Assembly: GCF_004099695.1 (NCBI RefSeq)
Contig: NZ_SCHL01000003.1
Coordinates: forward strand, 186,001 to 250,000
Length of the DNA: 64,000 nucleotides
Direction of reading: 5' to 3'
DNA from: Methanosarcina sp. MSH10X1
Lineage (GTDB): Archaea > Halobacteriota > Methanosarcinia > Methanosarcinales > Methanosarcinaceae
Shown here: piece by piece, positions 15,687 through 37,784 of the stretch
Layout of the letters: every line of letters begins with the position of its first letter
Position numbering within the stretch: position 1 is the first letter of the stretch
The notes under the pieces: generated by a model
Told to the model about the DNA's origin: nothing
Database searches by the model: none
Seen by the model: only the letters and a program-made list of their open reading frames with translations
Position numbers and translations under genes: made by a program

Positions 15687-16129
15687 CCTGTACTGAGGTA
15701 ATTCATTAAGAGATATAATTGTTTTGAATAATAATAGAATTATTCCGGGAAAGGACTGAAAAAAAACGGTTAGGGAAGAATTTTATGCGAAGAGTATATT
15801 TTATATAAAAAGAATTTTTTAGAAAACCCTGGTTTATGTAGAAATTGGCAGGAGCCAGACTTTTGACTGCTTGAGGCTTAATACGCGATACATCCAATAC
15901 GCAATACATCCCGAAAAAGTAGAAAATTGTCATCTCCAGAAAGGTTCAAGAGACAGGATCGTGAAATTTTGGAAAGAGAACTTCCAGGGAATTTTGATTC
16001 GTAAATTATTTACTTTCCTGGGCTCAGTGTTATAGCACAGGCAACAAAAGAAATTACGAAACTGCACACAGATTGTTGATAGAATTATAGATTATTTTGA
16101 AAAACCAGATGATTGCTGGGGATAGAAAA
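15687..16129. other. Divergent intergenic region
   Basis: This 440-base gap separates the leftward DUF1616 gene and the rightward M48 protease gene. It is AT-rich, and no gene is visible. It should carry both promoters; the TATATTTTATATAAAAAG stretch near 15790-15812 is the best TATA-like candidate. Confidence 0.4.
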
Positions 16130-17356
16130 ATGGGTACGTTTGGAGCATCCGGGTCTACTGAATTTCCTTCAGTCCTTGCCTTTATTTTAGAGGCGTTAAC
16201 TAAAAACGTCCTGGTCATACTGGGTTTATCTTTCCTGATAACTCTACTGTTCAGTTACATATATTTCAGGGGCAGCAGGTGGATTCTCAAATGGTACGGT
16301 GCACAGAAGATTCAACGAAATGAGAGAACTCTATTATATTCGACACTTGAAGAGCTTTCGGCGAAGGCAGGAATTAAGACGCCTGAGATGCTGAGTTTTG
16401 AGTCGGAGGTCCCTGCAATTTTTACCGTGGTAAGCGGAAGCAAATCCTTTATTACGGTTTCAACGGCGATGCTTGAGATGTTCGACGGCGTGGAAATGGA
16501 AGCCCTGCTTGCGCACGAAATAGGCCATATAAAAAACGGGGACGTGTACCTGAACACCATTACAGCGTTTCTGGCAGGGCTGGTAATGTCCTTCCCGGAC
16601 CTTGCAATGTGGGGCTCCATGCTTTCGGGTTTCGGGCAGCCTGAAGACCCGGCTCCGAGGTTTTTCAAATTTATGGCAACAGCCCTTGCAGCTCCTCCTG
16701 CAGCAGTTATAATACACCTGACAGACCCTGAAAAACGGGAGTTTGAAGCCGACAGAACAGCCGTGAAACTTACCGGAAACCCGCAAGCCCTGATAAAAAC
16801 GCTTGAGTTCCTTGAAAATTATATTCCTCTCCAGCCGGTTACAGGCAAGTTCAATCCGGGGCATTTTCACCTGTTCAGTACCCATACCCAGCAGATAAGA
16901 GGATACCTGTCCGTTTTTATATCACTGTTTGATACACACCCGGACATTAAAGACCGGATCATGCAGATCCTGAAGAATTCAAACCAGCCTGAAAAAGAAA
17001 TTCCAGGCAGCAAATATTCCAGAGTTCCGAGCTTCTTCGATTTAAGGAGCTGGAAACTTGCCATGGCAACGAGCTTTATCTCTTACATATCACTCCTCTT
17101 CGGGATTATAGTCCTGATAACCTTTGCCATAAAAGACTTCAATTTCCTGCTTAATGGAATAATTGCAGGTCTGTATATCGGAGCCGTGCTTCTTCTCATG
17201 TGCTCCACCGCCGCCCTCTCAAGAAAAGGATATTATCTGGACTCCACCCGGCAAAACCGCAGGAAAGGCCACTATCTCAATGCTATGAGACCAGCCCGCA
17301 AAAAAATCTCTTTGAACCCAAAGCAGCTTTTTAAACACTTCATGAAGAAAAGCTGA
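16130..17356 (+). CDS. M48-family (HtpX-like) membrane metalloprotease
   Basis: The 408-residue protein has a zinc-protease site HEIGH at residues 129-133 and the third-ligand motif EFEAD at about 204-208, the pattern of family M48. Membrane helices lie near residues 15-45, around 146-170, and in the C-terminal third (about 315-375); a basic tail follows. Such proteases remove misfolded or tagged membrane proteins. I choose ATG 16130 because GGGGA at 16118-16122 is a well-spaced ribosome binding site; upstream in-frame starts (TTG 16097, ATG 16109) lack one. It lies between the DUF1616 gene and archaeosortase C and could serve quality control of sorted surface proteins, an inference from context. 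Classical HtpX is shorter and lacks the long C-terminal extension. Confidence 0.85.
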   Translation: MGTFGASGSTEFPSVLAFILEALTKNVLVILGLSFLITLLFSYIYFRGSRWILKWYGAQKIQRNERTLLYSTLEELSAKAGIKTPEMLSFESEVPAIFTVVSGSKSFITVSTAMLEMFDGVEMEALLAHEIGHIKNGDVYLNTITAFLAGLVMSFPDLAMWGSMLSGFGQPEDPAPRFFKFMATALAAPPAAVIIHLTDPEKREFEADRTAVKLTGNPQALIKTLEFLENYIPLQPVTGKFNPGHFHLFSTHTQQIRGYLSVFISLFDTHPDIKDRIMQILKNSNQPEKEIPGSKYSRVPSFFDLRSWKLAMATSFISYISLLFGIIVLITFAIKDFNFLLNGIIAGLYIGAVLLLMCSTAALSRKGYYLDSTRQNRRKGHYLNAMRPARKKISLNPKQLFKHFMKKS

Positions 17357-17578: not shown

Positions 17579-18415
17579 TCACTTCTTGCGGTCTATAAAA
17601 TACATTATAAGGGCTGCAACACCTGCAAATATGATCCAGCCTATGTGGGTGTGCACGGTCATCATTGCTTCCTGACCGTACAGGTAGGCTGTCAGATAAA
17701 GGACAATTACCCGAAACAGGTTTGAGATGTAGGCAATGGCTATGCAGAACCCGAGCATTTTCAGGGTCCTGTTGAATTCCATTTTTTCGATCCGGCTGTA
17801 TCCGGAGACGATTCCGATCAAAAGGAACATGGAATAGAGTCCTGAGCAGGGTCCTCCGATAACTACAAGCATTTCCTCGACCCCGCTTACCCGGACGGTT
17901 TCGGTGGCGACCACCTCAAGAGGGATTCCTGCCAGGCCAAGCAGACGCACGGTTGGGAGAAGGATAAGGTAATGGTCGAACTTATGCAGGAAATCAATGT
18001 CCAGGTATGCGAACAGGGAATAGAAGATAAGGTACAGCACTATGAAAACGGATGAAATGTACATTCCAAACCCGGACACCCGGGTGATGTCGGAGCTGCG
18101 GAGCTGAGTGCCTATGAGCGAAAGCCCGAAGAAAACGGTCATTATGTCAAGAGTCCCGAGTTCTCCGCCTCTCCTGAAATTATAGTAGAGGTCAGCGAAA
18201 ACTATGAAAATTCCCGCAAGAAGGCGTACCTTTGATTTCTCCAGCGAGTCCAGGTCGCCAAGGCTTTTGAAGTTGATTCTTGTCAGGAGGAAAACCGAAC
18301 CCAGGAATAGCAAAACTCCTACAGTCGTTGAGCCCTCGCTGATTTCAACTGCCATGCCCGTGAACATTGCGAGCACAAGCAAAATAAGCACAAGATTTTT
18401 GTTTTCTTTCGCCAT
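17579..18415 (-). CDS. artC: Archaeosortase C (PEF-CTERM sorting transpeptidase)
   Basis: The 278-residue polytopic membrane protein shows the exosortase/archaeosortase active-site residues: Cys190 in GGPCSGLYSM, Arg235 in ISNLFRVIVLY and His255/His257 in VHTHIGW. About eight hydrophobic helices surround them. Family members cut C-terminal sorting signals at the outer membrane face and are thought to join the protein to a lipid or glycan; the ArtC branch pairs with PEF-CTERM tails. Two such substrates are encoded nearby (11582-12160 and 38905-40536). The gene is oriented away from the glycan genes that begin at 18890. The assignment to ArtC rather than ArtA rests on the PEF-CTERM partners, because the substrates lack PGF motifs. 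Confidence 0.88.
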   Translation of the reverse strand: MAKENKNLVLILLVLAMFTGMAVEISEGSTTVGVLLFLGSVFLLTRINFKSLGDLDSLEKSKVRLLAGIFIVFADLYYNFRRGGELGTLDIMTVFFGLSLIGTQLRSSDITRVSGFGMYISSVFIVLYLIFYSLFAYLDIDFLHKFDHYLILLPTVRLLGLAGIPLEVVATETVRVSGVEEMLVVIGGPCSGLYSMFLLIGIVSGYSRIEKMEFNRTLKMLGFCIAIAYISNLFRVIVLYLTAYLYGQEAMMTVHTHIGWIIFAGVAALIMYFIDRKK

Positions 18416-18889
18416 TAATAACTCTCTTTTTATACTTATGTATCTTTTTTTGGTAAATCCTTTTAAATTTTATCCTCATAGAGCGCAAAAAACAAGCCCG
18501 GAATCCCAGGAAAAATTTTGTATAAAAAGGTTCAGGCATGTGTTTCTCTGAAAAGGGAACTTTTATAATATTTATCAGTTCAAAAACACAAACTAAATAT
18601 ACTAATTTTAACTATTGGCTATTTATAAAATTCAAAAAGAAGAGTATTTACGGCACCTGAGCCTGTTTTAAACTTTTCTGGCGGGCGGCAGGACTGAACG
18701 GAACCTGGAAAATAGCAGCTTACGGCATGCAGTAAGAACAGCAGCATAACGATTGTTCGGAACGCGGCAGAAAGAGGCAGATGCAGCCGTAAAAACCGAT
18801 CCGGTGTATGGGTTTAAAAAGGGCTTAAAAAAAGCGGATTTCCTGCAAAAACAGGTGTAAAGTAAAAAATAATACAACGGGGGCAGAGT
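18416..18889. other. Divergent promoter region between artC and the glycan locus
   Basis: This 470-base gap holds no supported gene. It is AT-rich near artC, with TATA-like TTTATAATATTTATC at about 18560-18576, and GC-richer at 18661-18830, where short frames look accidental. Promoters for artC (leftward) and for the glycan run (rightward) are expected here. Confidence 0.4.
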
Positions 18890-19819
18890 GTGAGAGATTT
18901 TACCTTACAAAAATACGAGTCTCTTTTACAGGCGATCAAAAGCACGGACTATGCGGTAAGTACAGTGCACGGTTTCCTGGAAACTGCCCCGAAAAAATGC
19001 ATTATCCTGAGGCATGACGTGGACCGGGCGGTCAACCGGAACCTCGAAATGGCAAAACTCGAATACAGGTACGGCATCAGGTCGACCTACTACTTCAGGC
19101 ATGTGGAAGAGACCTTCAAGCCCGAAGCCATTCTCCAGATCGCAAACATGGGGCACGAAATAGGCTTCCACTACGAAGTGATGGACAAAGCGAACGGGAA
19201 CCCGGAAAAAGCAATCGAGATCTTCAAACGGGAACTCGAAGACCTCAGGCTAATTACCAGAGGCGTTACCGAGATCCGCACAGCCTGCATGCACGGAAAC
19301 CCTCTCAAGCCCTGGTCGAACCGTGACCTCTGGAAAAAGTACGATTTCAGGGATTTCGGGATAGAAGGAGAGCCCTATTTTTCAATCGATTACAGCAAAG
19401 TCTTTTACCTGACCGACACGGGCAGAACCTGGGCAGACCTGAAAATCCGGGTCAAGGATACGATTGACAGACCTGAAGCAAACAGCAGGTCAAAAGCAAA
19501 TGCCAGGCAAGGCGTAAATGCAGGTATTGAGCGTACAGGTTCAGGTTCAGATTCATGCTCAGGGTCGGATCTCAGAGATACAGCCCTTGCGGCTGCCGGC
19601 GTTAAAGACATTGCTTCTACGGATGATGTAATCCGCCTGGTAGAGAGCCAGAAACTTCCCCGGATCTGCCTGCTCGTGCACCCGAACCGGTGGTGCGAGG
19701 ATCCTGGAGGCTGGGCAAAGGAACTTGTTTTCCAGAACATAAAGAATGTCGGGAAGGCAGGGATCGTGTGGTACAGGAGCAGGACCCGGAAAAAAGATGC
19801 TATGACTGCGGGGCTTTAA
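18890..19819 (+). CDS. Polysaccharide deacetylase-like protein (NodB-fold)
   Basis: The 309-residue protein starts at GTG 18890 behind a GGGGGCA ribosome binding site. RHDVD at residues 41-45 supplies the metal-binding and catalytic aspartates of the carbohydrate esterase 4 fold; HEIGFHYE at 89-96 supplies the histidines; MHGNP follows near 135. The family removes acetyl groups from amino sugars of surface polysaccharides. Residues about 200-240 form a low-complexity Ser/Ala/Gly/Arg insert that is not part of the fold. No signal peptide is visible, so it may act on a cytoplasmic or lipid-linked glycan. It is the first gene of the glycan run, one base before the FemAB-like gene. Deacetylase plus FemAB-like is the pairing known from bacterial XrtA exopolysaccharide loci. 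Confidence 0.82.
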   Translation: MRDFTLQKYESLLQAIKSTDYAVSTVHGFLETAPKKCIILRHDVDRAVNRNLEMAKLEYRYGIRSTYYFRHVEETFKPEAILQIANMGHEIGFHYEVMDKANGNPEKAIEIFKRELEDLRLITRGVTEIRTACMHGNPLKPWSNRDLWKKYDFRDFGIEGEPYFSIDYSKVFYLTDTGRTWADLKIRVKDTIDRPEANSRSKANARQGVNAGIERTGSGSDSCSGSDLRDTALAAAGVKDIASTDDVIRLVESQKLPRICLLVHPNRWCEDPGGWAKELVFQNIKNVGKAGIVWYRSRTRKKDAMTAGL

Positions 19820-19820
19820 A

Positions 19821-20843
19821 ATGATTGAAATTACGGATTCGGTTGACCGGGAAAAGTGGGATGAGTTTGTATATAACCATCCATATGGAAACATTTTCCA
19901 GAGCAGCTATCTTGCTGACGTGTACAGGGCAACGAAGAATTACGAGCCCATTTCCCTCGCAGCTACGGATTCCGAAAACGGAGATATACTTGCAGTCCTC
20001 CAGGCTGTTATAATCAGGGATGCCCCTGGCCTGGTGGGATCGATTTCCTCAAGATCAATAATCAACGGCGGCCCTCTTTTTGCGGAAGGCAGAAAAGGGC
20101 TTGAAGCCCTTGAAAAGCTGTTAAATTACTACGAGAAGTTCCTGCACAGCCGGGCAATCTACACCCAGATCCGCAACATGTGGGACACCGAAAACTCGAA
20201 AACCGAACTGGAATCCCTGGGATACCAGTACGAGCCCCACCTGAATTACCTGATAAATCTCAACCGCCCCGCAAAAGCGATCTGGGCCGACATCCACAAG
20301 CCCCGCAAAAAAGGGATTAACCGAGCGGAAAAAGCCGGGATCACGATAAGAAAAATCGAAACGAAAGCCGAAGTCGCGGATTGCTATAAAGTGGTCGAGG
20401 AGACCTATAAAAACGTAAGGCTCCCGCTGGCGGACATCTCCCTGCTTGAGAACGCCTATGAAAAACTCGCACCGGCTGGCCTGGCGGACTTCTACCTTGC
20501 GGCCCTGGACGGCGAGGCTGTCGGCTCAAGGGTGGTTTTAAAGTACAGGGGCCTGGTGCACGACTGGTACGCAGGCTCAAAGCCGGAAATAAACTACGTA
20601 AACGAAGCCGTTGTCTGGCACATGCTCTCGGAATACGCCGAAAAGGAAAAGGTTTTCGACTTCGGAGGAGCAGGCCACCCTGACAAGCCCTACGGAGTAA
20701 GGGAATTCAAAAAACGCTTTGGCGGCGAGGAAGTCAATTTCGGGAGATACAAAAAGATCCACAGCAAAGCCAGAGACGAAGTTATGAAGTCAGGATTAAA
20801 AGTTTACAAAACGGTTGGGAAATACATTAACATAGGGATCTGA
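19821..20843 (+). CDS. FemAB-like GNAT-fold protein
   Basis: The 340-residue protein resembles the FemAB/BioF2-like family of double-GNAT acyltransferases. The first half begins with WDEFVYNHPYGNIFQSSYLA, and the second GNAT domain holds the DFYLAALDGEAVGSRVVLKY strand pair (about residues 225-245), followed by HDWYAGSKPEIN and a C-terminal FDFGGAGHPDKPYGVREFKK-type loop. Bacterial Fem proteins add amino acids to peptidoglycan; relatives in exopolysaccharide clusters probably acylate sugars. The acceptor here is unknown; a surface glycan sugar is likely given the neighbours. It follows the deacetylase by one base, so both are co-transcribed. No signal peptide or membrane helix is seen. Confidence 0.8.
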   Translation: MIEITDSVDREKWDEFVYNHPYGNIFQSSYLADVYRATKNYEPISLAATDSENGDILAVLQAVIIRDAPGLVGSISSRSIINGGPLFAEGRKGLEALEKLLNYYEKFLHSRAIYTQIRNMWDTENSKTELESLGYQYEPHLNYLINLNRPAKAIWADIHKPRKKGINRAEKAGITIRKIETKAEVADCYKVVEETYKNVRLPLADISLLENAYEKLAPAGLADFYLAALDGEAVGSRVVLKYRGLVHDWYAGSKPEINYVNEAVVWHMLSEYAEKEKVFDFGGAGHPDKPYGVREFKKRFGGEEVNFGRYKKIHSKARDEVMKSGLKVYKTVGKYINIGI

Positions 20844-20911
20844 TTCTGAAAAACAATCATCCCGTTAAGAGAGCAAGAGAGAGCATTAAAGAATCTTAGG
20901 GAGTAACAAGC

Positions 20912-22108
20912 ATGAGTTCCATTAAACCAGATCCAATGCTGATTCCGCGATTCAACATAGATTATAATATGAAAGATTTCGTGCACTCTCTGACAAATCT
21001 TAAATCTGAAGCCGATATCACACCTTTAACAGAACTTTTTTGTAGCTCATCAATAGCATTTACTAACAGCGGAAGAACTTCTCTTTATGTAATACTGAAA
21101 GCGTTGAACCTGCCAGAGAACTCAAACGTTGGAGTGCCGCTCTATTGCTGTCCCAGCGTATTTGATGCTATAATCCACGCTGGCCACAGACCGCTCTTTC
21201 TTGATACAGATCCTGAGAACTATACAATAAGTCCTGAGCATCTGGAAAAGAAGATTGATGAAATTGAAGCCGTGATTGTAATACATACTTTCGGAAGGCC
21301 TGCGGATCTGGACAGGATAAAGAAGATCGCAGGCAAAAAACCGATTATTGAAGACTGCGCTCACGGGCTTTTAAGCCGATATAAAGGAAAGCTGGCAGGA
21401 ACGATTGGAACTGCAGGCTTCTTCAGCTTCCGCACCGGAAAGTATATTTCAGCCGGAGAAGGCGGGATGGTAATCACCAGAGATTCGAAGCTTGCAGCAA
21501 ACATTAGAGAAGAAATACAGAAACTTCCGGACCCTTCCGACAGCGATGAAATCAAACATACAGTAAAAACCTGTGCACGCTCCACATTATACCACAGACC
21601 CTGGTTCGGAATGGTATCTCTGCCACTCGGGAGCAGGGTTGAAGACAAAGTTGACCTGATGAACAAATACTCATTTAAGACTACAAAAATTCGAAATACG
21701 GATCTTCAGGTTGTCACTAAAAAGCTGCTTGACTTTCAGGAGAAGGTAGAACAGCAGAGAAAAAATTCTCAATATTTGCTTGAAAACCTGAAAGATAGTG
21801 GTCTAAAATTACCCTTTGAAACTAAAAATACCTACTGTAACTATTACCTTTTTCCAGTACAAGCCAAAAACGAGCCCGAAAGGGATAGAATCTGCGAGCT
21901 TTTGAGAACAAAAGGAATAGATACAACCAAATTATTCAGCAAAACACCAGCTATAGCGAGAGCAAATTACGGATATAAAGGAGACTGTCCAAATACCGAA
22001 AGTGTTGCAGACAGGATATTCACGATTCCTAATTATTATACGCTCAATAAAAAAGAGCTTGACCAGATAGTAGACGCAATAAAAAATGGCAGGGTGAATC
22101 AGGTTTGA
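20912..22108 (+). CDS. DegT/DnrJ/EryC1 family PLP-dependent sugar aminotransferase
   Basis: The 398-residue protein is a sugar aminotransferase-like protein. The PLP lysine is probably Lys177 in SFRTGKYISAGEGG, preceded by the pyridine-contacting Asp148 in IIEDCAHGL and by the substrate-site residues in TNSGRTSLYV (about 51-60). The family transfers amino groups to keto-sugars when aminosugars for surface glycans are made. AGGGAG upstream of ATG 20912 is a good ribosome binding site. Its stop overlaps the TTG start of the DUF354 gene, so the two are coupled. From here on the sequence turns clearly more AT-rich than the genes to its left. Confidence 0.85.
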   Translation: MSSIKPDPMLIPRFNIDYNMKDFVHSLTNLKSEADITPLTELFCSSSIAFTNSGRTSLYVILKALNLPENSNVGVPLYCCPSVFDAIIHAGHRPLFLDTDPENYTISPEHLEKKIDEIEAVIVIHTFGRPADLDRIKKIAGKKPIIEDCAHGLLSRYKGKLAGTIGTAGFFSFRTGKYISAGEGGMVITRDSKLAANIREEIQKLPDPSDSDEIKHTVKTCARSTLYHRPWFGMVSLPLGSRVEDKVDLMNKYSFKTTKIRNTDLQVVTKKLLDFQEKVEQQRKNSQYLLENLKDSGLKLPFETKNTYCNYYLFPVQAKNEPERDRICELLRTKGIDTTKLFSKTPAIARANYGYKGDCPNTESVADRIFTIPNYYTLNKKELDQIVDAIKNGRVNQV

Positions 22109-23136
22109 GGGTTTTATTTGATGTCGGACATCCAACAGATGTTAATGTATTCAGGAATGTCATAAAAAAATTAGAGGAAGAAGGACACTCAACAAAAGTA
22201 ACCGCAAGAGATAAGGAAAATACTGTTGAGTTGCTCAAAACCTATGGTTTAGATTATGAAGTTAGCCCACACTATAAAGGAATGCTGAACAAAGCTCTAG
22301 GGCTTCCAAGAGCTGACTATTTTGTATATAAAGTAGCAAAAAAATTCTCCCCTGATGTATTTGTCAGTGCTGGAACTCCTTATGCTGCACAGGTCAGCAA
22401 AATGTTAGGAAAACCTCATATTGCGTTTCCCAATACTGAGCACGCTAAACTTGCGATATACTTAAGTAAACCCTTTACCGACCTGATATGCACCCCTACT
22501 TTTTTTAAAAGAGACCTTGGCAAAAAGCAGACACGCTTCAATAGCTTCAATGAATTAACCTATTTACACCCCAACTATTTCACTCCCGATGAGAGTATTA
22601 TAAAAAAGCTAGGGCTTGAAAAAGATCGCTACGTTCTCATCAGATTTTCAGCTCTGAACTCGCACCATGACCTATCAGCAAAGGGATTTGAGTTCAAGAA
22701 TGAGAGCGAAGTACTCGAATTTATAGAAAAGATCGAAGAGTTTCAGAGAGTAGTTATTACCTCAGAAGTTAAAATTGGAAGTAAATTCGAAAAATATAAA
22801 CTGAATGTACCTTCTGACAAATGGCATGATTTTCTCTACTATGCGACAATGTATATCGGAGAGGGAGCAAAAACTGCCTCTGAAGGTGCTATACTGGGAG
22901 TGCCTGCCATATATGTTTCTAACACCAGAAGAGGATATCTCGATGAACTTGAAGAAAAATACGATATGGCATATACAATTCCTGATAAAAATGATGCACT
23001 AAATAAAGCGGTATCTCTACTAAATCAGGACAACTTAAAAGGAATATGGCGGTCTAAGCGAGAAAAGATGTTAAAAGATAAAGCAGATACGGTTGAGTTT
23101 ATTGTAGATATTGCCAAAAAGTACGGGGAAAAGTAA
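22105..23136 (+). CDS. DUF354 family glycosyltransferase-like protein
   Basis: The 343-residue protein begins at a TTG overlapping the preceding stop. MRVLFDVGHPTDVNVFRNVI, followed by a GT-B-like alternation of strands and helices and GEGAKTASEGAILGVPAIYV at about residues 252-271, is the DUF354 pattern, related to UDP-GlcNAc 2-epimerase and MurG-type folds. The family is common in archaeal surface-glycan loci and is presumed to transfer or modify a nucleotide sugar; no reaction is proven. No membrane helix is visible. Ribosome binding relies on AGGG-like bases inside the upstream gene or on coupling. Confidence 0.8.
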   Translation: MRVLFDVGHPTDVNVFRNVIKKLEEEGHSTKVTARDKENTVELLKTYGLDYEVSPHYKGMLNKALGLPRADYFVYKVAKKFSPDVFVSAGTPYAAQVSKMLGKPHIAFPNTEHAKLAIYLSKPFTDLICTPTFFKRDLGKKQTRFNSFNELTYLHPNYFTPDESIIKKLGLEKDRYVLIRFSALNSHHDLSAKGFEFKNESEVLEFIEKIEEFQRVVITSEVKIGSKFEKYKLNVPSDKWHDFLYYATMYIGEGAKTASEGAILGVPAIYVSNTRRGYLDELEEKYDMAYTIPDKNDALNKAVSLLNQDNLKGIWRSKREKMLKDKADTVEFIVDIAKKYGEK

Positions 23137-23153
23137 ACTGCTAATTTAATGGT

Positions 23154-23855
23154 GTGAAAAAGAAAATGAAGTGGATGCAATCTGAAAATGAAGTGTATTA
23201 TCCGGATTTCGCTAACTCAACACTTATGGGTACATATCTAACTAAAAAAGAGGAAGAATTTATTAATTTCATTTTAGAAAAAGAGCACCTAAATAATTCA
23301 TTATTATTAGATATAGGAGGAGGAAGTGGAAGATTTGCTATACCCCTTCATTTAAAAGGAAGAAAAGTGGTTGTATTAGACTCCAGCGCTAATGCTCTAT
23401 CATCATTAAAAAATAAACAAAGTGATCTTCCGACCATTAGAGGAAATGGGGAAAAACTTCCGTTCAAATCAGGCACTTTTGATATTATCTTTGTCATTGA
23501 AACAATAGAGTATATTGCAGACAAAGAGGATTTTCTAAGAGATTGCCATAAAATGCTTAAAGAAGAGGGTATTCTGATTGTGACTATACTAAACAGGTTA
23601 AGTTACAAAATGCTTCATCCAAATCGTAGAAAAAGACCGGAATTTTATTGGACGACATATAATAAATTTAAAGGATTGCTGGCACTAGCAGGATTTGATA
23701 CTAAGAAAGCTTTTGGTTTTAACTGGATTCCAGCTAATCGTAGTTCTAACAACTCTTTGATACCATATTTTGCTATGATAGAAGATTTGTTGAGATTAAA
23801 ATATCTCCCTTTTATAAGCCCTTGGGTTATAATTTCAGCAAGAAAAAGTAGTTGA
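23154..23855 (+). CDS. Class I SAM-dependent methyltransferase
   Basis: The 233-residue protein carries the SAM-binding motif LLLDIGGGSGRFAIP at about residues 50-64, an acidic residue after the second strand (VVVLDSS), and the post-motif region FKSGTFDIIFVIETIEYI, as in the Methyltransf_11 group. It probably methylates a sugar or lipid-linked glycan intermediate, judged only from its neighbours. I start at GTG 23154; ATG 23166 (fifth codon) is an alternative, since neither has a convincing ribosome binding site. It lies 17 bases after DUF354 in the same direction. Confidence 0.8.
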   Translation: MKKKMKWMQSENEVYYPDFANSTLMGTYLTKKEEEFINFILEKEHLNNSLLLDIGGGSGRFAIPLHLKGRKVVVLDSSANALSSLKNKQSDLPTIRGNGEKLPFKSGTFDIIFVIETIEYIADKEDFLRDCHKMLKEEGILIVTILNRLSYKMLHPNRRKRPEFYWTTYNKFKGLLALAGFDTKKAFGFNWIPANRSSNNSLIPYFAMIEDLLRLKYLPFISPWVIISARKSS

Positions 23856-23916
23856 GATAAGCTCTTTAAAAAAAAATACATGAGTTATAGATATCATCTA
23901 GAAGGGAGGAGTAAAA

Positions 23917-24408
23917 ATAAGATCATTCGAAAAAAAACGCTCACATATTGAGAAATTAACTCGATTAAACGTAAATAGATCTTTTAACGAGTTTTTACTC
24001 ATAGATAATGATCTCGATGGTGTTCTTGAAAAATGGAGTTTAAACAACTTTTCCTTAGATCTTCCTGATAAATGGGAACTATCATTTACTGCATACGTAG
24101 AAGGAAAAGCTGTTGGGTATATGATATGCTCTAAAAAAGAGAATAATACCCATATACACAGGATAGCAATCTGCAAAGAATATCAGCGAATGAATATAGG
24201 AAATAACTTGATTAGGACCTTGGAAAACCGAATTGGTTCAGGGGAGAAAATTACATTAAAAGTTAAAAAATTCAATTTTGTTGCTATCAAGTTCTATAAG
24301 AAAAACGGGTTCATTATATACGGAGAAGAGGATTGTAACTACTTATACGAAAAAACTGTTGGTGATGAGATTGACAAAAAAGGTACTTGCAATGAGTGCG
24401 CATCCTGA
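23917..24408 (+). CDS. GNAT N-acetyltransferase with no canonical start codon (AUA?)
   Basis: The frame is open from 23902 and encodes about 163 residues with a GNAT core: ELSFTAYVEGKAVGYMICSK, then THIHRIAICKEYQRMNIGNN (the acetyl-CoA loop, here KEYQRMNIGN) and FYKKNGFIIYGE at the C-terminus. A strong Shine-Dalgarno GGGAGGAG at 23904-23911 is followed by ATA at 23917, and no ATG, GTG or TTG occurs in frame before 24121, which lies inside the fold. Either AUA is used, or the ATG has mutated and the gene is dying. It likely acetylates an amino sugar made by the neighbouring aminotransferase. The end overlaps the start of the PIG-L gene by 44 bases. Confidence 0.65.
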   Translation: MRSFEKKRSHIEKLTRLNVNRSFNEFLLIDNDLDGVLEKWSLNNFSLDLPDKWELSFTAYVEGKAVGYMICSKKENNTHIHRIAICKEYQRMNIGNNLIRTLENRIGSGEKITLKVKKFNFVAIKFYKKNGFIIYGEEDCNYLYEKTVGDEIDKKGTCNECAS

Positions 24409-25030
24409 TGACATGGAATTTGAAGCAGGAGGCACGATTGCGAAATTTACTAAAAGAGGATATAAGGTACACCTACTTGTATTAACTAACGGAAAATATA
24501 TGGATATGAGCGGTAAGGAACATTCGAGGGTAGATCTGCAAACCGAAGGAAGAAGGGCTGCTGAGATTCTTGGAACTGAAGAACCTATATTTTTTGATAA
24601 TCCTGTTACTAATCTTCGAGTTACCGGTGAGATCGTCACGCAGGTAGACAATATTGTAGATGAAATAAAGCCGGATATATTCATATCTCATCATCCATTC
24701 GATTCTCATCAGGACCATAAAGCTGCGGCTGAAATTATGTTTGCTGTCTGCAGGCAGGGACGGGTCAAAAATGTGCTAAGTGGTTCTACTTTGCCTTACC
24801 GTCCGAATATTTTTGCTTACAGACCTCAGTTTTTCGTAGATATCTCTGAAACAATTGACACGAAAATAGAGTCTATTCGTGCATATAAGAGTCAGTATGA
24901 GAAATTTGGAGGAGAAAAACTTATTGAGAGAATGATAGACATGGCTAAAACTCAGGGCTGGGCCATGGGATATGAATATGCAGAGTCTTTTGAAGTAATA
25001 AGAATGGATGAAAGCATATTAGGGGACTGA
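24365..25030 (+). CDS. PIG-L/LmbE family deacetylase
   Basis: The 221-residue protein is a zinc-dependent GlcNAc deacetylase of the PIG-L family. AHPDD at residues 12-16 supplies the zinc-binding His and Asp, and HHPFDSHQDH near residue 103 supplies the second histidine set. Substrates in the family are N-acetylglucosamine-type sugars on lipids or metabolites. I start at ATG 24365 because it retains the first beta strand (TKKVLAMSAHPDD); the frame is open farther upstream but overlaps the GNAT gene. A GNAT next to a deacetylase suggests exchange of N-acyl groups on an aminosugar. Confidence 0.85.
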   Translation: MRLTKKVLAMSAHPDDMEFEAGGTIAKFTKRGYKVHLLVLTNGKYMDMSGKEHSRVDLQTEGRRAAEILGTEEPIFFDNPVTNLRVTGEIVTQVDNIVDEIKPDIFISHHPFDSHQDHKAAAEIMFAVCRQGRVKNVLSGSTLPYRPNIFAYRPQFFVDISETIDTKIESIRAYKSQYEKFGGEKLIERMIDMAKTQGWAMGYEYAESFEVIRMDESILGD

Positions 25031-25043
25031 TTAAGGGGATTAC

Positions 25044-25715
25044 ATGATTGTAGCGATTCATCAACCAAATCATTTACCGTACTTAGGATTTTTCGACAAA
25101 GTTCTAAAGTCAGATATTTTTGTTATTCATGATGACGCACAGTTTAATGATTCAGACTTTCAGCGTCGAAACAGGATAAGAGTGTATAAAGGCTGGAAGT
25201 GGATTACAGTCCCAGTAGAAAGAAAGGAGATCCCCATTAATAAAATAATGATCAAAAATGATGTAAATATTGGAGAAAGATCCTGGAATAGAGCCCACTT
25301 TGAGATTATCCAGGGTTGGTACAAAAATGCACCTTACTTTGAGACTTACAAGGACGATTTAAGGAAGATATACGAGTCCAAACATGATAAATTAGCGAAT
25401 TTTAACATAGAAATAATAAAATTTTTAATTAAAGCGTTTGATCTTGAAATTAAAATAGTTTTTTCGAGTGATTTTAATCTACCTTCAAAAAAGACAGAGA
25501 GAATAATTGATACTGTAAGAGCAGTTGGAGGAGATACATATTTATCAGGTCCAGCTGGCAAAGACTACATGGATTTGAGCTTATTTAAAGACATAGAGTT
25601 ACAATTCCAGAACTTTAAACATCCCGAGTACCCTCAGTGTTACGCTGGGTTTGTACCTAACATGTCAGCTATTGATGCATTATTCAATGTGGGAAAACTT
25701 CCTATGGAGTACTGA
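25044..25715 (+). CDS. WbqC-like family protein
   Basis: The 223-residue protein begins MIVAIHQPNHLPYLGFFDKV and contains DDAQFNDSDFQRRNRIR and YLSGPAGKDYMD (about residues 170-181), the pattern of the WbqC-like family found in O-antigen and other polysaccharide clusters. Biochemical function is not established; some members act on sugar-linked amino acid or acyl substrates. An AAGGGG ribosome binding site precedes the ATG. It lies 13 bases after the PIG-L gene and 5 before the glycosyltransferase, so it is co-transcribed. Confidence 0.82.
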   Translation: MIVAIHQPNHLPYLGFFDKVLKSDIFVIHDDAQFNDSDFQRRNRIRVYKGWKWITVPVERKEIPINKIMIKNDVNIGERSWNRAHFEIIQGWYKNAPYFETYKDDLRKIYESKHDKLANFNIEIIKFLIKAFDLEIKIVFSSDFNLPSKKTERIIDTVRAVGGDTYLSGPAGKDYMDLSLFKDIELQFQNFKHPEYPQCYAGFVPNMSAIDALFNVGKLPMEY

Positions 25716-25720
25716 ATAAG

Positions 25721-26626
25721 ATGCCGTCAAATTACATACTTGTAACTCCGATAAAGAATGAGGAGAAAAATATCAATGCACTTATAAATTCCATTGTAAA
25801 TCAGACGATTTGCCCTATTCTGTGGGTTGTAATAAATGACTACAGTACAGATAATTCACACATGTATATATCCGAAGCAGAAAAAAAATACCCTTGGATA
25901 AGATGCATAAAACCAGCTAGTGAAAGAAAAGAAAGGGATCTTGGATTCCACCTTCCTAAGATAATGCAAGAGGGATTTGATTTTGCATATAAAGTATGTA
26001 AATCAAAAAATCTTTCTTTCGATTATGTTGGCAATATTGATGGAGATATACAGCCAGATAAAGATTATTTTGAAAACTTAATTAAAGAATTCAAAATAAA
26101 TTCAAAGCTAGGAGTTGCATCTGGAACACCCGTAATAGAATGTAGTGGGGAACTAATCTATCCAAAAACTGTAGAAATCCCATCAGGAGGAGCAATGTTA
26201 GTGAGTAAGAATTGCTTTGAAGTGTGCGGAGGAATCCCCTGTTCCTATTCGTATGATAGCGTTTTAAACGTGAAAGCCAGATTAAACGGATGGGAAGTCA
26301 AACGTTTTCGTTCTGCAGAGCATCACTCCACAAGATATGCTAGAGGAGCAGACAATGATTGGAAGAGGTATGTTACACTGGGAAAAAGCCATTATTATAT
26401 TGGATATAACTCATTATTGGCTATATTAAAAGGGATAAACTTTAGTTTTACCTCCCCGCGTATTGCAGGACTAGCATATGTATATGGATATATGGGTGAT
26501 ACATTATCGCTTAAAAAGAAAATTCCGGATAAAGATGTACAACATTATTTTAAATACAAAAAATTTACAGAAATCGCATCTAGACATTTAAATAATTTCA
26601 GCCATAGCAAAAAACGCTCATTATAA
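25721..26626 (+). CDS. Family 2 glycosyltransferase
   Basis: The 301-residue protein has a GT-A fold. It starts with YILVTPIKNEEKNINALINS (about residues 5-24), the metal-binding acidic motif is in VGNIDGDIQPD (about 106-116), and the acceptor region SGGAMLVSKNCFEVCGGIP follows. The C-terminal part has weak hydrophobic segments but no sure membrane helix. It adds a sugar to a lipid-linked or protein-linked glycan; neither donor nor acceptor can be told. Codon use is AT-rich like the flanking genes. Confidence 0.85.
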   Translation: MPSNYILVTPIKNEEKNINALINSIVNQTICPILWVVINDYSTDNSHMYISEAEKKYPWIRCIKPASERKERDLGFHLPKIMQEGFDFAYKVCKSKNLSFDYVGNIDGDIQPDKDYFENLIKEFKINSKLGVASGTPVIECSGELIYPKTVEIPSGGAMLVSKNCFEVCGGIPCSYSYDSVLNVKARLNGWEVKRFRSAEHHSTRYARGADNDWKRYVTLGKSHYYIGYNSLLAILKGINFSFTSPRIAGLAYVYGYMGDTLSLKKKIPDKDVQHYFKYKKFTEIASRHLNNFSHSKKRSL

Positions 26627-26645
26627 ATAACCTCGTGGGTAAAAC

Positions 26646-28205
26646 ATGGATGTGAATTCCAATCATCAAAAAAGAGTACTGCTTTGTTTATTACTCATAG
26701 TATTGAATGTAGTTATAAGAATTCCTTCTGCTCCACACGAAATCGGTGGAGATACTTATCAATTGCATACAATAGCAAATTCAATAACTCAGTTTGGTGA
26801 ACCACGATGGTGGATTAACTGGCTATCAGTTATTGGTATGTATACATATTCCTATGCAAGTGCTGTCCCCTTTTGTTTATCAGGGATCTCTCAGTTAACC
26901 GGAATTGATATGGAAATTACAATTTATCTATATGCTTTATTTACAGGTTTACTCAGCGCTGGCACTGCATATATTATGGCGAGTACCTTCTACAATGAAT
27001 TTACATTTAAATATCTGGTGTCACTCTTTTATTCTATATCAGCAGGGGTTTTAGCTTTTACATCATGGAATGCTAGCGCTAGGGGTCTATTTTTAGTTTT
27101 ATTTCCATTATTTATTTTTATTTTACTGAAAAAGTTTTCTTCACCGTGGAAAAAATTATGCTTAATAGTTTTACTATTTGCGTTTTTAAGAGCTACACAC
27201 AATTTTTGTTACTTTACAGCACCTTTGATATTAGTATATATTTCCATAGAACTTTTAGGAAAAGGAAATTCGTCTTTTAAAAACTCAAATTTATATAAAT
27301 ATCAAAACTATTTGTACTTACTATTAACTTGTTTTTTTTTCATTATACCATTCTTCACTAAATTATTCATCGTAGGATCAAAATATAAAGCAGTCATTGA
27401 TTTAGTAATAACTACGACAAGATATCTTGGCCCAATAGTAATTTTTGTAATACCAGGGTTTGTATATCTATGTCTAAAGAGCAGTAAAACAAAATATGAA
27501 AATTTTATTCTAATCTCCACTTTATTTTTTATACCTATGTTCTATAATGAAATTTATGGAAAATTCATAACACTGCCTATATTGGTGTTTTATGTAGCGA
27601 TTGCCGTTAAAAATATGACAATAAATAGAAATATAGTCATTAATAAGAAGATGGCACTAAATATTTTACTAGTGTTATTAATTTGTTCACTAACTATGTT
27701 TTCAAGTTTTTACTCCCACTTCCGAACAGGCTCATCAGAAAATTCTTTCACTATGTCGGAATACACAAACGCTGCTGGAGTCTGGTCTAGATATTATACA
27801 AATGAAAATAGCCACGTTTATACGACTAATGCTGAAGTCACAAGAATGGCTGCAGTTTCAAATGGACATATTATTGTCCCGCTGCTTCCAATAGTGTCTC
27901 TGATTTATGGTTATGTCAGTCTTGAAGATGTAGAGAATACATCCATAGAGGTATCCCCATGGTCTAAGGACTATTATTTTGACGGAGCATACTCCCAAAA
28001 GTCAGGTACACTCGTATGGGGACATTATAACTGGAATTCTGAGTTTGGAATCAATGATGGAAGAGTAAAAAGTATGATAAACAAATATAACATCAAATAC
28101 GTTGTTGAGGATAAAGCGTATAGTCCTACAAAACTGACAAGTTCGCTTAATGATGAAAAGGATTTGATATTCAGTAACGGTAGAGTAAATATATGGAATC
28201 TATAA
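26646..28205 (+). CDS. Polytopic membrane protein, GT-C-like
   Basis: The 519-residue protein has ten or more predicted membrane helices (about residues 8-360), followed by a soluble C-terminal domain of some 150 residues. The first outside loop reads IPSAPHEIGGDTYQLHTIAN, an acidic/aspartate loop after helix one that resembles GT-C glycosyltransferases and oligosaccharyltransferase-type enzymes, which use lipid-phosphate sugars. I do not recognise a named family. Given a flippase and glycosyltransferases next door, a role in adding a sugar on the outer face is the best guess. A wzy-like polymerase is an alternative. Confidence 0.6.
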   Translation: MDVNSNHQKRVLLCLLLIVLNVVIRIPSAPHEIGGDTYQLHTIANSITQFGEPRWWINWLSVIGMYTYSYASAVPFCLSGISQLTGIDMEITIYLYALFTGLLSAGTAYIMASTFYNEFTFKYLVSLFYSISAGVLAFTSWNASARGLFLVLFPLFIFILLKKFSSPWKKLCLIVLLFAFLRATHNFCYFTAPLILVYISIELLGKGNSSFKNSNLYKYQNYLYLLLTCFFFIIPFFTKLFIVGSKYKAVIDLVITTTRYLGPIVIFVIPGFVYLCLKSSKTKYENFILISTLFFIPMFYNEIYGKFITLPILVFYVAIAVKNMTINRNIVINKKMALNILLVLLICSLTMFSSFYSHFRTGSSENSFTMSEYTNAAGVWSRYYTNENSHVYTTNAEVTRMAAVSNGHIIVPLLPIVSLIYGYVSLEDVENTSIEVSPWSKDYYFDGAYSQKSGTLVWGHYNWNSEFGINDGRVKSMINKYNIKYVVEDKAYSPTKLTSSLNDEKDLIFSNGRVNIWNL

Positions 28206-28275
28206 GATATTTAGTCAATATGGAAATGAGTATAAGTTCAGTTTATAACAAAGAGATTTTTTATTAGGCGTAAAA

Positions 28276-29415
28276 ATGCAAAATTTAGTGTATTATTATC
28301 CTTTAGGTAGTGGCGCACCGTCAGAGGTATCAAGAAAATTGTTTTCAGCATTAATCAGCAAAAACCTACATTTAAACATAGCCATTTTTCCTCAAAAGAG
28401 AAATAAGAATTTTTTAGATATAGTGGAGAATACTTATCCTAACACGAAAATATACTTAATAAATAACTTATTTCAAAATTACGACGAAAAGTTATTAATG
28501 CATTTTACTATGAGTCCTTTAGTATATCCAAATAGAAAATTTATTCTATATTTAGCAGCATTATTGAATAGAAACAAAAGAAACAAACTAAAACTAATAA
28601 TAAATTATCATGGAGAACCTAGCACTGAATTTAAGATAAAGTTAAAAAATCATGACTTAAAAAGTTTAGTATACGTTCCAAATTATATATTAACACCATA
28701 TATAATGAGAAGTGCTGATGTAATTATTGTTAACTCTTTTATGATAAGAGATCTTTTCGTAACTAAATACAAGGCTAGAAATATAATTGTTATTCCAAAC
28801 GGTATAGATTCTTCATGGTCATCTAATAGCAACAGTAAACTGAAAAAAAATGAAAAAAACACAAAATACTTGTTTTATCATGGAAGACTTGACCCAGAAA
28901 AGGGAGTGGAATTACTAATAAAAGCATTTAGTAATGTTTTAAAAGTAACAAATGAGAATATAAAGCTTTTTATTGGTGGAAATGGTAAACAAAGAAACTA
29001 TTTAGAAAAGTTATGTAATAACTTAAAAATAGAAAATGATGTTACTTTTTTAGGAAATCTTTCACAAACTGAAATAAAATTTTACTTATCTATAGCAGAT
29101 ATTGCAGTTTACCCTTCAATATTAGATGGTTTTTCCCTTTCCGTATTAGAAGCGTTTAGCATTGTTAATGGTCCAGTAATATATTCCAATAAAATAGGAA
29201 TTGATGATTTTGTTAGAAAAAGTGGATTTGAATTTTATACGTTTAATCCATCTATCGAAGAAATCACAAGTATGATCTCAAAAATATTAAAAAATGACTA
29301 TGATAAAAAAATATTTTTAAGACAAAAAGAATTTGCAAGCCATTATACATGGGATAGAATTGTTAATGAATATATAAAAGTATACCAAGATCTTTTTTTA
29401 AATGATGATAATTAA
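28276..29415 (+). CDS. Family 4 glycosyltransferase
   Basis: The 379-residue protein has a GT-B fold. The donor-binding half shows YHGRLDPEKGVELLIKAF (about residues 198-215), LFIGGNGKQRNYL, and the ExxE-like region DGFSLSVLEAFSIVNGPVIY (about 290-309) that binds the nucleotide sugar phosphate. The N-terminal acceptor half is lysine- and asparagine-rich. It is very AT-rich in codon use even for this region. Product linkage is unknown. A 35-codon open frame overlaps its end. Confidence 0.85.
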   Translation: MQNLVYYYPLGSGAPSEVSRKLFSALISKNLHLNIAIFPQKRNKNFLDIVENTYPNTKIYLINNLFQNYDEKLLMHFTMSPLVYPNRKFILYLAALLNRNKRNKLKLIINYHGEPSTEFKIKLKNHDLKSLVYVPNYILTPYIMRSADVIIVNSFMIRDLFVTKYKARNIIVIPNGIDSSWSSNSNSKLKKNEKNTKYLFYHGRLDPEKGVELLIKAFSNVLKVTNENIKLFIGGNGKQRNYLEKLCNNLKIENDVTFLGNLSQTEIKFYLSIADIAVYPSILDGFSLSVLEAFSIVNGPVIYSNKIGIDDFVRKSGFEFYTFNPSIEEITSMISKILKNDYDKKIFLRQKEFASHYTWDRIVNEYIKVYQDLFLNDDN

Positions 29416-29509
29416 TGAAATAATTCATGTTGCAGAACAGAGAGCTGAATCAGAAGGCGAACTTATTGCTGCAAGTAAGTTGGTGAACTCTATTTCAAAA
29501 TTACGTTGA
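29402..29509 (+). other. Short open frame, possible gene remnant
   Basis: A 35-codon frame (ATG ATG start overlapping the end of the GT4 gene) encodes a soluble helix-like piece ending in AASKLVNSISKLR and stops eight bases before the flippase. It has no ribosome binding site of its own and looks like the C-terminal scrap of a lost gene or a chance frame. Confidence 0.2.
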
Positions 29510-29516
29510 GATAATT

Positions 29517-30944
29517 ATGTCTATAGCTAAAAGAATTCTGAAGAACTCTGGTTATTTACTTATCAGTAGGGTAGCAACTAAAGTAGTTAGTTTCTTTATA
29601 CTACTATATATTGCAAATTATCTTGGTCCAGCTAATTTTGGAAAATATTCTTTTGCTTTTGCATTTGTATATTTTTTTAGCTTTATTCCGGACTTAGGAA
29701 TACATCAAATATTGGTACGTGAAGCGGCAAAAGATGAGACAATAATGGATAAACTTATAGGCAATGCTACAATTGTTAAATCCGTTTTATCAGTTGTTGC
29801 TTTTTTACTGTGTTGTTTAACTATAAGCGTTACCGACTATCCATCTTCGACAAAAAACGCCGTATTCATTGCAGCTATTGGGCTGTTAGCAACAAGTCTC
29901 ACAGGATTTGGTATAGTATACGAAGTTAAACTGAGAATGGACTATTCTCTACTATTTAACATAACTGACAGATTGTTTCTTCTTGTATCAGTTTTATACC
30001 TAGCTTGGCACAATCCAAGCTTAAACTTATTTATTGGAGTGACCGTAGCAGCAGAATTTATAAACAACACTTTAATGACTATATCCTCTAAACACTTTTT
30101 AACGCCAAAATTCAAAATAGATTATAATTTAATAAAAAAGATTATATTAGAGGCTCTACCAATAGCTATCTCTTCTGCATTCGTTATGATTTATTTCAGA
30201 ATAGACACAGTTATGCTTTCTCTCTTAACAAATGACACCGAAGTAGGGTTTTATAGTGCTGCCTATCGGCTAACTGAAGCTTTAACTTTTATTCCTTCTA
30301 TTCTTATGGTTTCTACATATCCTATAATGTCAAAGTATTTTAACGAAAAAAACGAGGCTTTTAGTTATATTTATGTGAAATCATTCAAAATATTATTTGC
30401 ATCAGGTTTGATGATCGGAACTGTTGTGACATTTTTTTCTGAAGAAATAATACTCAAAATATATGGATCAGAATACTATGGTTCTATTATCGCATTGCAA
30501 GTATTGATATGGGCTACCTCAGTCATGTTTGTAAATTATCTTGTAACCTCTACATATGTCGCAAGTGGGAATCAAAACATTATGGCTAAAATGTCAGCTA
30601 TTGCAGCAGTATTAAATATAGGACTAAATTTGCTTTTGATTCCTTCTTATAGTTATACAGGAGCTGGCGTTGCAACATTCTTTACCGAGCTTATTTTAAT
30701 GGTTTATGGAGTTTACTGGATCAACAAAAATATTATCCAAATCGGGCTATTTAAAGAAATTATTTATCCTTCAATTAGTATTTGTATAGTATCTGCTTTC
30801 TTGATAGTTTCAAGGAATTACATCGATGTTATCCCTTTAACGGTAGTATCGATATTAATATTCACAGGAATACTCTACATTACAGGATGGGTAGACTCGG
30901 ACGATATAACGTTATTTAAAAAAATTATTCCGATAAAAAAATAA
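29517..30944 (+). CDS. Polysaccharide flippase (Wzx/MATE-like), copy 1
   Basis: The 475-residue protein has about 12-14 membrane helices and the polysaccharide-export signature at the N-terminus: LYIANYLGPANFGKYSFAFA (about residues 29-48) and FIPDLGIHQILVREAAKD. Further features are the YFRIDTVMLSLL helix and YSAAYRLTEALTFIPSILM in the second half. Such proteins move lipid-linked oligosaccharides to the outer face. It closes the rightward glycan run. A close paralogue lies at 36333-37784, but the codon use of this copy is much more AT-rich, so they did not arise by a recent local duplication. Confidence 0.9.
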   Translation: MSIAKRILKNSGYLLISRVATKVVSFFILLYIANYLGPANFGKYSFAFAFVYFFSFIPDLGIHQILVREAAKDETIMDKLIGNATIVKSVLSVVAFLLCCLTISVTDYPSSTKNAVFIAAIGLLATSLTGFGIVYEVKLRMDYSLLFNITDRLFLLVSVLYLAWHNPSLNLFIGVTVAAEFINNTLMTISSKHFLTPKFKIDYNLIKKIILEALPIAISSAFVMIYFRIDTVMLSLLTNDTEVGFYSAAYRLTEALTFIPSILMVSTYPIMSKYFNEKNEAFSYIYVKSFKILFASGLMIGTVVTFFSEEIILKIYGSEYYGSIIALQVLIWATSVMFVNYLVTSTYVASGNQNIMAKMSAIAAVLNIGLNLLLIPSYSYTGAGVATFFTELILMVYGVYWINKNIIQIGLFKEIIYPSISICIVSAFLIVSRNYIDVIPLTVVSILIFTGILYITGWVDSDDITLFKKIIPIKK

Positions 30945-36332: not shown

Positions 36333-37784
36333 ATGCAAATAGCTAAAAAAGTCGCCAGAAACTCAGCTTTTTTGCTTATCAACGGCATTTCATCCAAAAT
36401 AATCAGCTTTTTTATATTATTGTATATTGCCCGTTATCTCGGTCCTGCTGACTTTGGGAAATATTCCTTTGCTTTTGCATTTATCTACTTTTTTAGCTTC
36501 ATTCCGGATCTGGGAATACATAAAATTCTGGTGCGTGAAGCCGCGAAAGACCAGAAAATAATGGATAAGCTTATAGGAAACGCTACAGTCGTCAAATCCG
36601 TTCTGGCAGTACTTGCTTTTGCATTTTCCTGTTTAATCATAAGCCTTACAGATTATCCGCCTTCCACGAAAAACGCCGTGTATCTTGCAGCGTTCGGCTT
36701 GCTGGCAGTAAGCCTTAGCGGGTTTGGCATAGTCTATGAGGTAAAACTGAGGATGGACTACTCCTTATTTTTCAGCGTAACCGGCAGATTATTTTTCCTC
36801 ATCTCGGTTTTATACCTGACCCGGCATAATGCGAGTTTATACTCATTTATTATCGTATCCGTAGCGGCGGACTTTGTGCATAATATTTTAATGACCGGAT
36901 TTTCCGGGCGGTTTGTAAAACCCAGGCTCAGAATTGACTACAGCCTGATAAAGCAAATCATGCGAGAAGCCCTGCCAATAGCGGTCTCCACAGTCTTTGT
37001 TATGATATATTTCCGGATCGACACGGTTATGCTCTCCTTTCTGACAAACGACACGGATGTAGGGCTCTACAGTGCCGCCTACCGCCTGACTGAGGCTTTG
37101 ACTTTTATTCCTTCGGTGCTTATGGTCTCGATATATCCGCTAATGTCGAAATATTTCCACGAAAAAAATACAGCTTTCAATTATATTTACACAATGTCGT
37201 TCAAGCTGCTTTTTGCTTCGGGCTTGCTGCTTGCAACCGTGATCACATTTCTCTCTGAAAATATTATAGTTGGAATATACGGCTCAGATTACTACGGCTC
37301 AATAGCTGCATTACAGGTGCTGATCTGGGCTACTTCGGTAATGTTTGTAAACCAGCTTCTGAGTTCCACATACATTGCAAGCGGAAACCAGAATGTAATG
37401 GCTAAAATCTCAGCGTTTGCCGCCCTGTTGAATATCGGGCTGAACCTGGCCTTAATCCCACTTTATAGCTATACCGGCGCCAGTATTGCAACCCTGATCA
37501 CGGAATTTCTTGTGATGGTTTATGGGATTTACTGGATTGACAGAAAGCTTGTCCATGAAAATTTGTATAAAGAAATAATCTCTCCTTTAATCGGGGTTGG
37601 AATAATTTCGGCTTTCATGCTGATATCAAGAGATTATGCAAATATTGTTCCCCTGTCCGCAGTATCGGTTCTAATGTTCGCAGCGATACTCTATAACACG
37701 GGCTGGGTTGGTCAGGAGGATATAGCTTTGTTTAAAAAAGTCCTTCCGAAAGGGAGGGATAAAGGAAGTAAATCACTTAAATAA
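36333..37784 (+). CDS. Polysaccharide flippase (Wzx/MATE-like), copy 2
   Basis: The 483-residue protein is a paralogue of copy 1 with the same length, helices and motifs: LYIARYLGPADFGKYSFAFA, FIPDLGIHKILVREAAKD, YFRIDTVMLSFL and YSAAYRLTEALTFIPSVLM. By eye the two agree at about two thirds of positions across the whole chain. Synonymous positions here are richer in G and C, close to the chromosomal style, whereas copy 1 is AT-rich. That suggests this is the older resident and copy 1 arrived with the AT-rich island. It moves lipid-linked glycans outwards. Remnants of aglH and vanZ follow it. Confidence 0.9.
   Translation: MQIAKKVARNSAFLLINGISSKIISFFILLYIARYLGPADFGKYSFAFAFIYFFSFIPDLGIHKILVREAAKDQKIMDKLIGNATVVKSVLAVLAFAFSCLIISLTDYPPSTKNAVYLAAFGLLAVSLSGFGIVYEVKLRMDYSLFFSVTGRLFFLISVLYLTRHNASLYSFIIVSVAADFVHNILMTGFSGRFVKPRLRIDYSLIKQIMREALPIAVSTVFVMIYFRIDTVMLSFLTNDTDVGLYSAAYRLTEALTFIPSVLMVSIYPLMSKYFHEKNTAFNYIYTMSFKLLFASGLLLATVITFLSENIIVGIYGSDYYGSIAALQVLIWATSVMFVNQLLSSTYIASGNQNVMAKISAFAALLNIGLNLALIPLYSYTGASIATLITEFLVMVYGIYWIDRKLVHENLYKEIISPLIGVGIISAFMLISRDYANIVPLSAVSVLMFAAILYNTGWVGQEDIALFKKVLPKGRDKGSKSLK

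Follow-up and report, generated by a model that had tools for sequence, protein, structure and literature searches.

In Gram-positive bacteria, the amine acceptor of the transpeptidase sortase A is supplied by a FemAB-family enzyme, in the form of FemABX-modified lipid II. PorU, the sortase of the type IX secretion system (T9SS), is unrelated to exosortases. The T9SS sortase of Porphyromonas gingivalis and Tannerella forsythia attaches its cargo to an N-seryl or N-glycyl linking sugar; VimE is thought to remove an acetyl group and VimA, which matches TIGR03019, to add Ser or Gly to the sugar amine, and the authors of that work suggested the same scheme for PEP-CTERM systems (PMC7468200). The substrates of archaeosortase A (ArtA) are reported to be lipid-anchored, and PssA and PssD have been proposed to make archaetidylethanolamine, the amine of which resolves the ArtA thioester (PMC7157517). 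Here we describe the locus of archaeosortase C (ArtC) in Methanosarcina sp. MSH10X1, within a stretch of 64,000 nucleotides (NZ_SCHL01000003.1, positions 186,001 to 250,000; hereafter the window). Like the bacterial XrtA locus, it places an exosortase-superfamily enzyme beside a CE4-type deacetylase, a FemAB protein and glycosyltransferases. It also resembles the Wbp/Vim pathway, in which a deacetylase and a FemAB-like aminoacyltransferase serve a sortase-type reaction (PMC7468200).

Three genes of the window are central to what follows:

17579-18415, minus strand: ArtC (TIGR03762, 403 bits against a cut-off of 100)
18890-19819, plus strand: CE4/NodB-fold deacetylase-like protein with a divergent metal site, recognized by its predicted fold (no match among Pfam or NCBIfam models)
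19821-20843, plus strand: FemAB/FemX-fold protein, presumed aminoacyl-tRNA-dependent aminoacyltransferase (PF02388, 38.4 bits against a cut-off of 24; PF13480 also over its cut-off)

The plus-strand run of glycan genes faces artC across a gap of about 475 bases, and the FemAB-like gene begins one base past the stop codon of the deacetylase gene.

We drew on 238 genomes of the class to which this methane-forming archaeon belongs, and 62 of them have an ArtC over the cut-off; we compared the artC neighbourhoods over up to 20 kb and counted linkage at the 39 loci whose glycan side was covered by 12 kb of sequence or more. A CE4-type deacetylase occurred at 32 of these 39 loci, and deacetylase and FemAB together at 28. 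An earlier note on this DNA would have counted itself refuted if the two families stood next to artC only here. This is not the case: the association is real, is not due to chance and extends far beyond the Methanosarcina sp. MSH10X1 genome. The order DUF1616, M48 peptidase, artC, deacetylase, FemAB, DUF354, family 2 glycosyltransferase (GT2), 519-residue protein was found in most members of the same family and, rearranged, in other families of the order, while the glycan genes distal to artC varied strongly among loci.

Presence of the genes followed the same pattern. The deacetylase (at least 200 bits) was found in 42 of the 62 artC genomes vs 2 of the 176 others (Fisher 7e-29, not corrected for phylogeny), and both of these artC-negative genomes have divergent ArtC-like genes. 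In the same genus, artC occurs in 8 of 31 genomes and the deacetylase clade in the identical 8 (Fisher 1.3e-7, likewise uncorrected). Two genomes of this genus, G170 and G175, have several PEF-CTERM proteins over the cut-off and no ArtC match.

We also asked whether artC occupies a fixed site beside the ribosomal operon, and rejected this, as relatives have other glycan genes, or none, at that position. One could still suppose a neighbourhood without function, artC lying at a hot spot for surface genes and being gained or lost together with the resident glycan island. The presence of other glycan loci at the site beside the ribosomal operon in some relatives and the variability of the distal genes would agree with this. 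However, such an account leaves aside that the order from DUF1616 to FemAB is kept in many genomes, that two slots have been repeatedly refilled and that no such genes are found at artA loci, and we regard it as very improbable.

The refilling is seen in the pairings at the 28 loci with both genes. Deacetylase and FemAB were both of the window type at 22 loci; at 4 the window-type deacetylase was paired with a TIGR03019-type FemAB, and at 2 (G084 and G067) a XrtA-type deacetylase was. The latter two are the only artC loci with XrtA-type versions of both genes. In G084, the FemAB adjoining artC scored 292 bits with TIGR03019, over the cut-off of 260, and the deacetylase had TIGR03006 as its best model (74.7 bits, under the cut-off of 276); the G067 FemAB reached 287 bits with TIGR03019, again over the cut-off. 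This replacement of both partners by non-orthologous families is the strongest sign that the arrangement has a function.

The trees of the two proteins came from quick searches, with SH-aLRT as the sole measure of support, and their deep forks are weak. The window FemAB clade has 27 rows, all artC-linked (SH-aLRT 97). The window deacetylase clade has 34 rows, 32 of them artC-linked; the two others come from G134, with an ArtC-like gene (64 bits), and from G181, where artC lies on another short contig. Deacetylases of further lineages, outside this main clade, are also found at artC loci. Among artC-free relatives, the locus L170 (6143-7846) encodes a 567-residue fusion of a window-type deacetylase, a TIGR03006-like deacetylase (136.6 bits) and DUF3473.

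For comparison with XrtA we used reference loci from plasmids of Vibrio alfacsensis and Nitratidesulfovibrio vulgaris (TIGR03109, TIGR03006, TIGR03019). Despite the shared layout, both window proteins, deacetylase and FemAB, are of different subfamilies, the sorting enzyme is ArtC rather than XrtA, and the substrates are PEF-CTERM rather than PEP-CTERM proteins. The window archaeosortase scored 28.7 bits with the XrtA model TIGR03109 (cut-off 208) and the FemAB 46.9 bits with TIGR03019 (cut-off 260); the deacetylase had no match to TIGR03006 up to an E-value of 0.1. We therefore rejected orthology of the window pair with the XrtA pair, given the sub-threshold TIGR03019 score, the missing TIGR03006 match and the separate FemAB clade. 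The earlier note had called this locus the archaeal counterpart of the XrtA locus and had proposed a tree comparison as a check; by function the description holds, by descent it does not, because the subfamilies differ, and in the FemAB tree the bacterial XrtA proteins form another clade.

A control is offered by ArtA; of the 112 genomes in the family, 105 have it over the cut-off. We took 20 genomes with both genes at artC and inspected about 10 kb on either side of artA, and neither a deacetylase nor a FemAB was found at any of the 20 loci. An NCBIfam scan of three artA loci gave a phosphatidylserine-type decarboxylase and an archaetidylserine synthase as the next genes. Thus each archaeosortase of these cells stands beside its own pair able to produce an amine. 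In this, ArtA with PssA/PssD (PMC7157517) is like ArtC, but it would use a lipid amine instead of the sugar amine that we propose for ArtC, and its locus is a separate one in the same genomes. The suggestion of the earlier note that protein sorting and glycan assembly are linked as a system is borne out: the linkage is conserved across several families, survives slot replacement and is missing at artA loci.

It might be argued that ArtC simply shares the archaetidylethanolamine proposed for ArtA, the glycan cluster independently glycosylating the substrates or the cell surface. The pss genes do adjoin artA in the same genomes, and lipid anchoring is what has been reported for ArtA substrates (PMC7157517). 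The partners at artA and artC loci are nevertheless different and consistent, and the Pfam scan of window genes around artC showed no pss gene; we consider this explanation improbable.

The predicted structures point to particular activities. The AlphaFold2 (AF2) model of the FemAB-like protein (pLDDT 95) shows the tandem GNAT fold and has as its closest solved structures FemX (E 3e-20), then Sbb17/Sba18 and MprF-type lipid aminoacyltransferases; Sbb17 and Sba18 depend on aminoacyl-tRNA, and their structures were solved with an amino-sugar antibiotic. The window protein is presumed to be an aminoacyl-tRNA-dependent aminoacyltransferase as well. For the deacetylase-like protein (AF2 model pLDDT 83), the best neighbours in the PDB are CE4 deacetylases, with a VIA Z of up to 12.7, against 7.6 and below for unrelated folds. 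Residues H42, D43, D45, H94, E96, H135 and H264 are invariant in 98 relatives, among them the HDxD motif and the metal-binding H94; the HP motif is invariant too. At about residues 195-235 the protein has an insert rich in Ser, Gly and Asn, modelled with low confidence, that is absent from most relatives. In ArtC, at least 97% of 61 relatives keep C190, R235 and H255.

Starting from the conserved linkage, the non-orthologous slot replacement, the predicted folds and the contrast with artA, all of which were observed, we propose the following. ArtC (Cys190, Arg235, His255) would cleave PEF-CTERM proteins and keep each one bound through a thioester. The downstream genes would build a glycan or glycan precursor that contains an amino sugar; the CE4-type enzyme would strip this sugar of its N-acyl group, and onto the freed sugar amine the FemAB-type enzyme would transfer an amino acid from aminoacyl-tRNA. 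The amino group of the added amino acid could then attack the thioester, leaving the mature C-terminus amide-linked to a surface glycan. Hence the pair would build an N-aminoacyl amino sugar, the amine of which accepts the PEF-CTERM protein from ArtC, a proposal for which we see the chances as evenly balanced. We infer the covalent PEF-CTERM–glycan link, the enzymatic activities, the identities of sugar and amino acid, and the order of the steps. By analogy, the artC pair fits the linking-sugar scheme of VimE and VimA; the Gram-positive sortase A system differs in having a peptidoglycan precursor as acceptor and an unrelated sortase.

Several points weigh against this proposal. The window deacetylase does not have the second His of the CE4 H-x3-H motif at the usual place, and because it is out of place we can only infer a deacetylase activity; the invariant E96 or H135 could stand in for it. 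The likeness to VimA and VimE is drawn from their described roles. Neither gene is nearby at 7 of the 39 artC loci, mostly in one family (f5), and several artC genomes do not have the deacetylase clade. In the literature searched, we found nothing on the chemistry of mature PEF-CTERM proteins. Nor did we find a description of the linkage of artC with the deacetylase and FemAB, or a paper that brings exosortase, FemAB and polysaccharide deacetylase together, in a search that did not cover Haft 2012, so that a prior mention is possible.

Furthermore, the deacetylase-FemAB module has an existence independent of sorting, in archaea as well as in Bacteroidota. Glycan loci of archaea that are free of artC also hold the deacetylase, FemAB, aminotransferase, DUF354 and flippase genes. 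Bacteroidota have the deacetylase family widely, with 573 relatives among the candidates; the bacterial proteins nearest to the window pair come from polysaccharide clusters of this phylum that have no adjacent exosortase. We examined 82 bacterial and plasmid loci: a FemAB relative, often together with DUF354, was present at 40 and an ArtC relative at none. The FemAB-DUF354-deacetylase cassette of Spirosoma oryzicola, for instance, is of the same subfamilies (31% identity for FemAB, 38% for the deacetylase) and has a similar gene set, but no adjacent ArtC-like gene. The module is consequently not dedicated to sorting; since it occurs without artC, we take it to serve the making of modified sugars in general and to have become tied to artC.

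The same distribution would suit a surface polysaccharide that is decorated by the pair and merely bound by, or co-regulated with, the PEF-CTERM proteins, with no covalent join. The deacetylase-FemAB-DUF354 set is common in Bacteroidota clusters without a nearby exosortase and in the artC-free archaeal loci. A T9SS sortase is over the cut-off in 22 of 32 bacterial genomes carrying the deacetylase, a figure with no baseline for comparison, and some deacetylase-bearing bacterial genomes have none over the cut-off. A non-covalent association does not account for the pair nearest to artC being the least variable part of the cluster, nor for its replacement by functional equivalents; we think it unlikely, although not negligibly so. 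In Prevotellaceae, two loci (L235 and L247) have the deacetylase with DUF354, and L235 also two FemABs. Prevotella intermedia uses an N-alanyl linking sugar, the synthesis route of which is unknown (PMC11969387), and these loci are a possible lead to it.

The remaining genes of the locus and its surroundings are the following:

11582-12160, minus strand: PEF-CTERM protein, predicted ArtC substrate (TIGR03024, 27.9 bits, cut-off 23)
13269-15686, minus strand: DUF1616 membrane protein, conserved artC neighbour (PF07760, 168 bits)
16097-17356, plus strand: M48 (HtpX-like) peptidase, conserved artC neighbour (PF01435, 65 bits)
20912-22108, plus strand: DegT/DnrJ/EryC1 sugar aminotransferase (PF01041, 176 bits)
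22105-23136, plus strand: DUF354 protein, which we take to be of the GT-B/epimerase-like class (PF04007, 67.8 bits)
23154-23855, plus strand: methyltransferase (PF08241, 70 bits)
24278-25030, plus strand: PIG-L/LmbE-type sugar de-N-acetylase (PF02585, 88.8 bits)
25044-25715, plus strand: WbqC family protein (PF08889, 223.5 bits)
25721-26626, plus strand: GT2 (PF00535, 47.9 bits)
26646-28205, plus strand: hydrophobic 519-residue protein, probably GT-C-like (no Pfam or NCBIfam match)
28276-29415, plus strand: GT4-like glycosyltransferase (from a reading of the sequence; relatives at artC loci)
29517-30944, plus strand: polysaccharide flippase (PF01943, 129 bits)
38905-40536, plus strand: PEF-CTERM protein, predicted ArtC substrate (TIGR03024, 34.3 bits)

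All genes named in the earlier note were found where it had placed them, through TIGR or Pfam matches and, for the deacetylase, the predicted fold. It had left out the methyltransferase, the PIG-L deacetylase, DUF1616 and M48, and the last two are tied to artC at least as tightly as the named genes, with relatives at 45 (DUF1616) and 43 (M48) of the 62 artC loci. Because both stay next to artC also at loci that have no glycan genes (family f5), they may be the core ArtC partners. Three PEF-CTERM proteins in the genome are over the cut-off, and two of them, those in the window, flank the artC locus.

The sugar aminotransferase of the window, and the hexapeptide acyltransferase that many artC loci add, are a further likeness to the Wbp/Vim pathway; the Pfam scan of window genes showed neither WbpA nor WbpB. 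The 519-residue protein is a conserved partner of the GT2, recurring beside it at artC loci. Relatives of the PIG-L-type enzyme occur at 17 of the 62 artC loci, and this de-N-acetylase could likewise free an amine. By eye, the flippase genes at 29517-30944 and 36333-37784 are closely similar and less than 7 kb apart, which suggests a duplication in the island. The island is closed by a gene for a PF00953 (MraY/WecA-like) sugar-phosphate transferase (40880-41860), which could initiate a lipid-linked glycan.

Which acceptor exosortases and archaeosortases use is not settled. For ArtA there is the proposal of a lipid amine, and the neighbourhood described here gives a candidate for ArtC. A deacetylase and a FemAB protein near a protein-joining enzyme would bring XrtA, type IX secretion and ArtC under one scheme. 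Tentatively, and with rather less assurance than for ArtC itself, we suggest that the two archaeosortases of one cell have separate acceptors, with the genes for each lying next to the enzyme, ArtA using the PssA/PssD lipid amine and ArtC an aminoacylated amino sugar from the deacetylase/FemAB pair, and that this latter chemistry also supplies the acceptor of bacterial XrtA. If this is true, the C-terminus of the archaeal PEF-CTERM proteins would be their point of attachment to a glycan.

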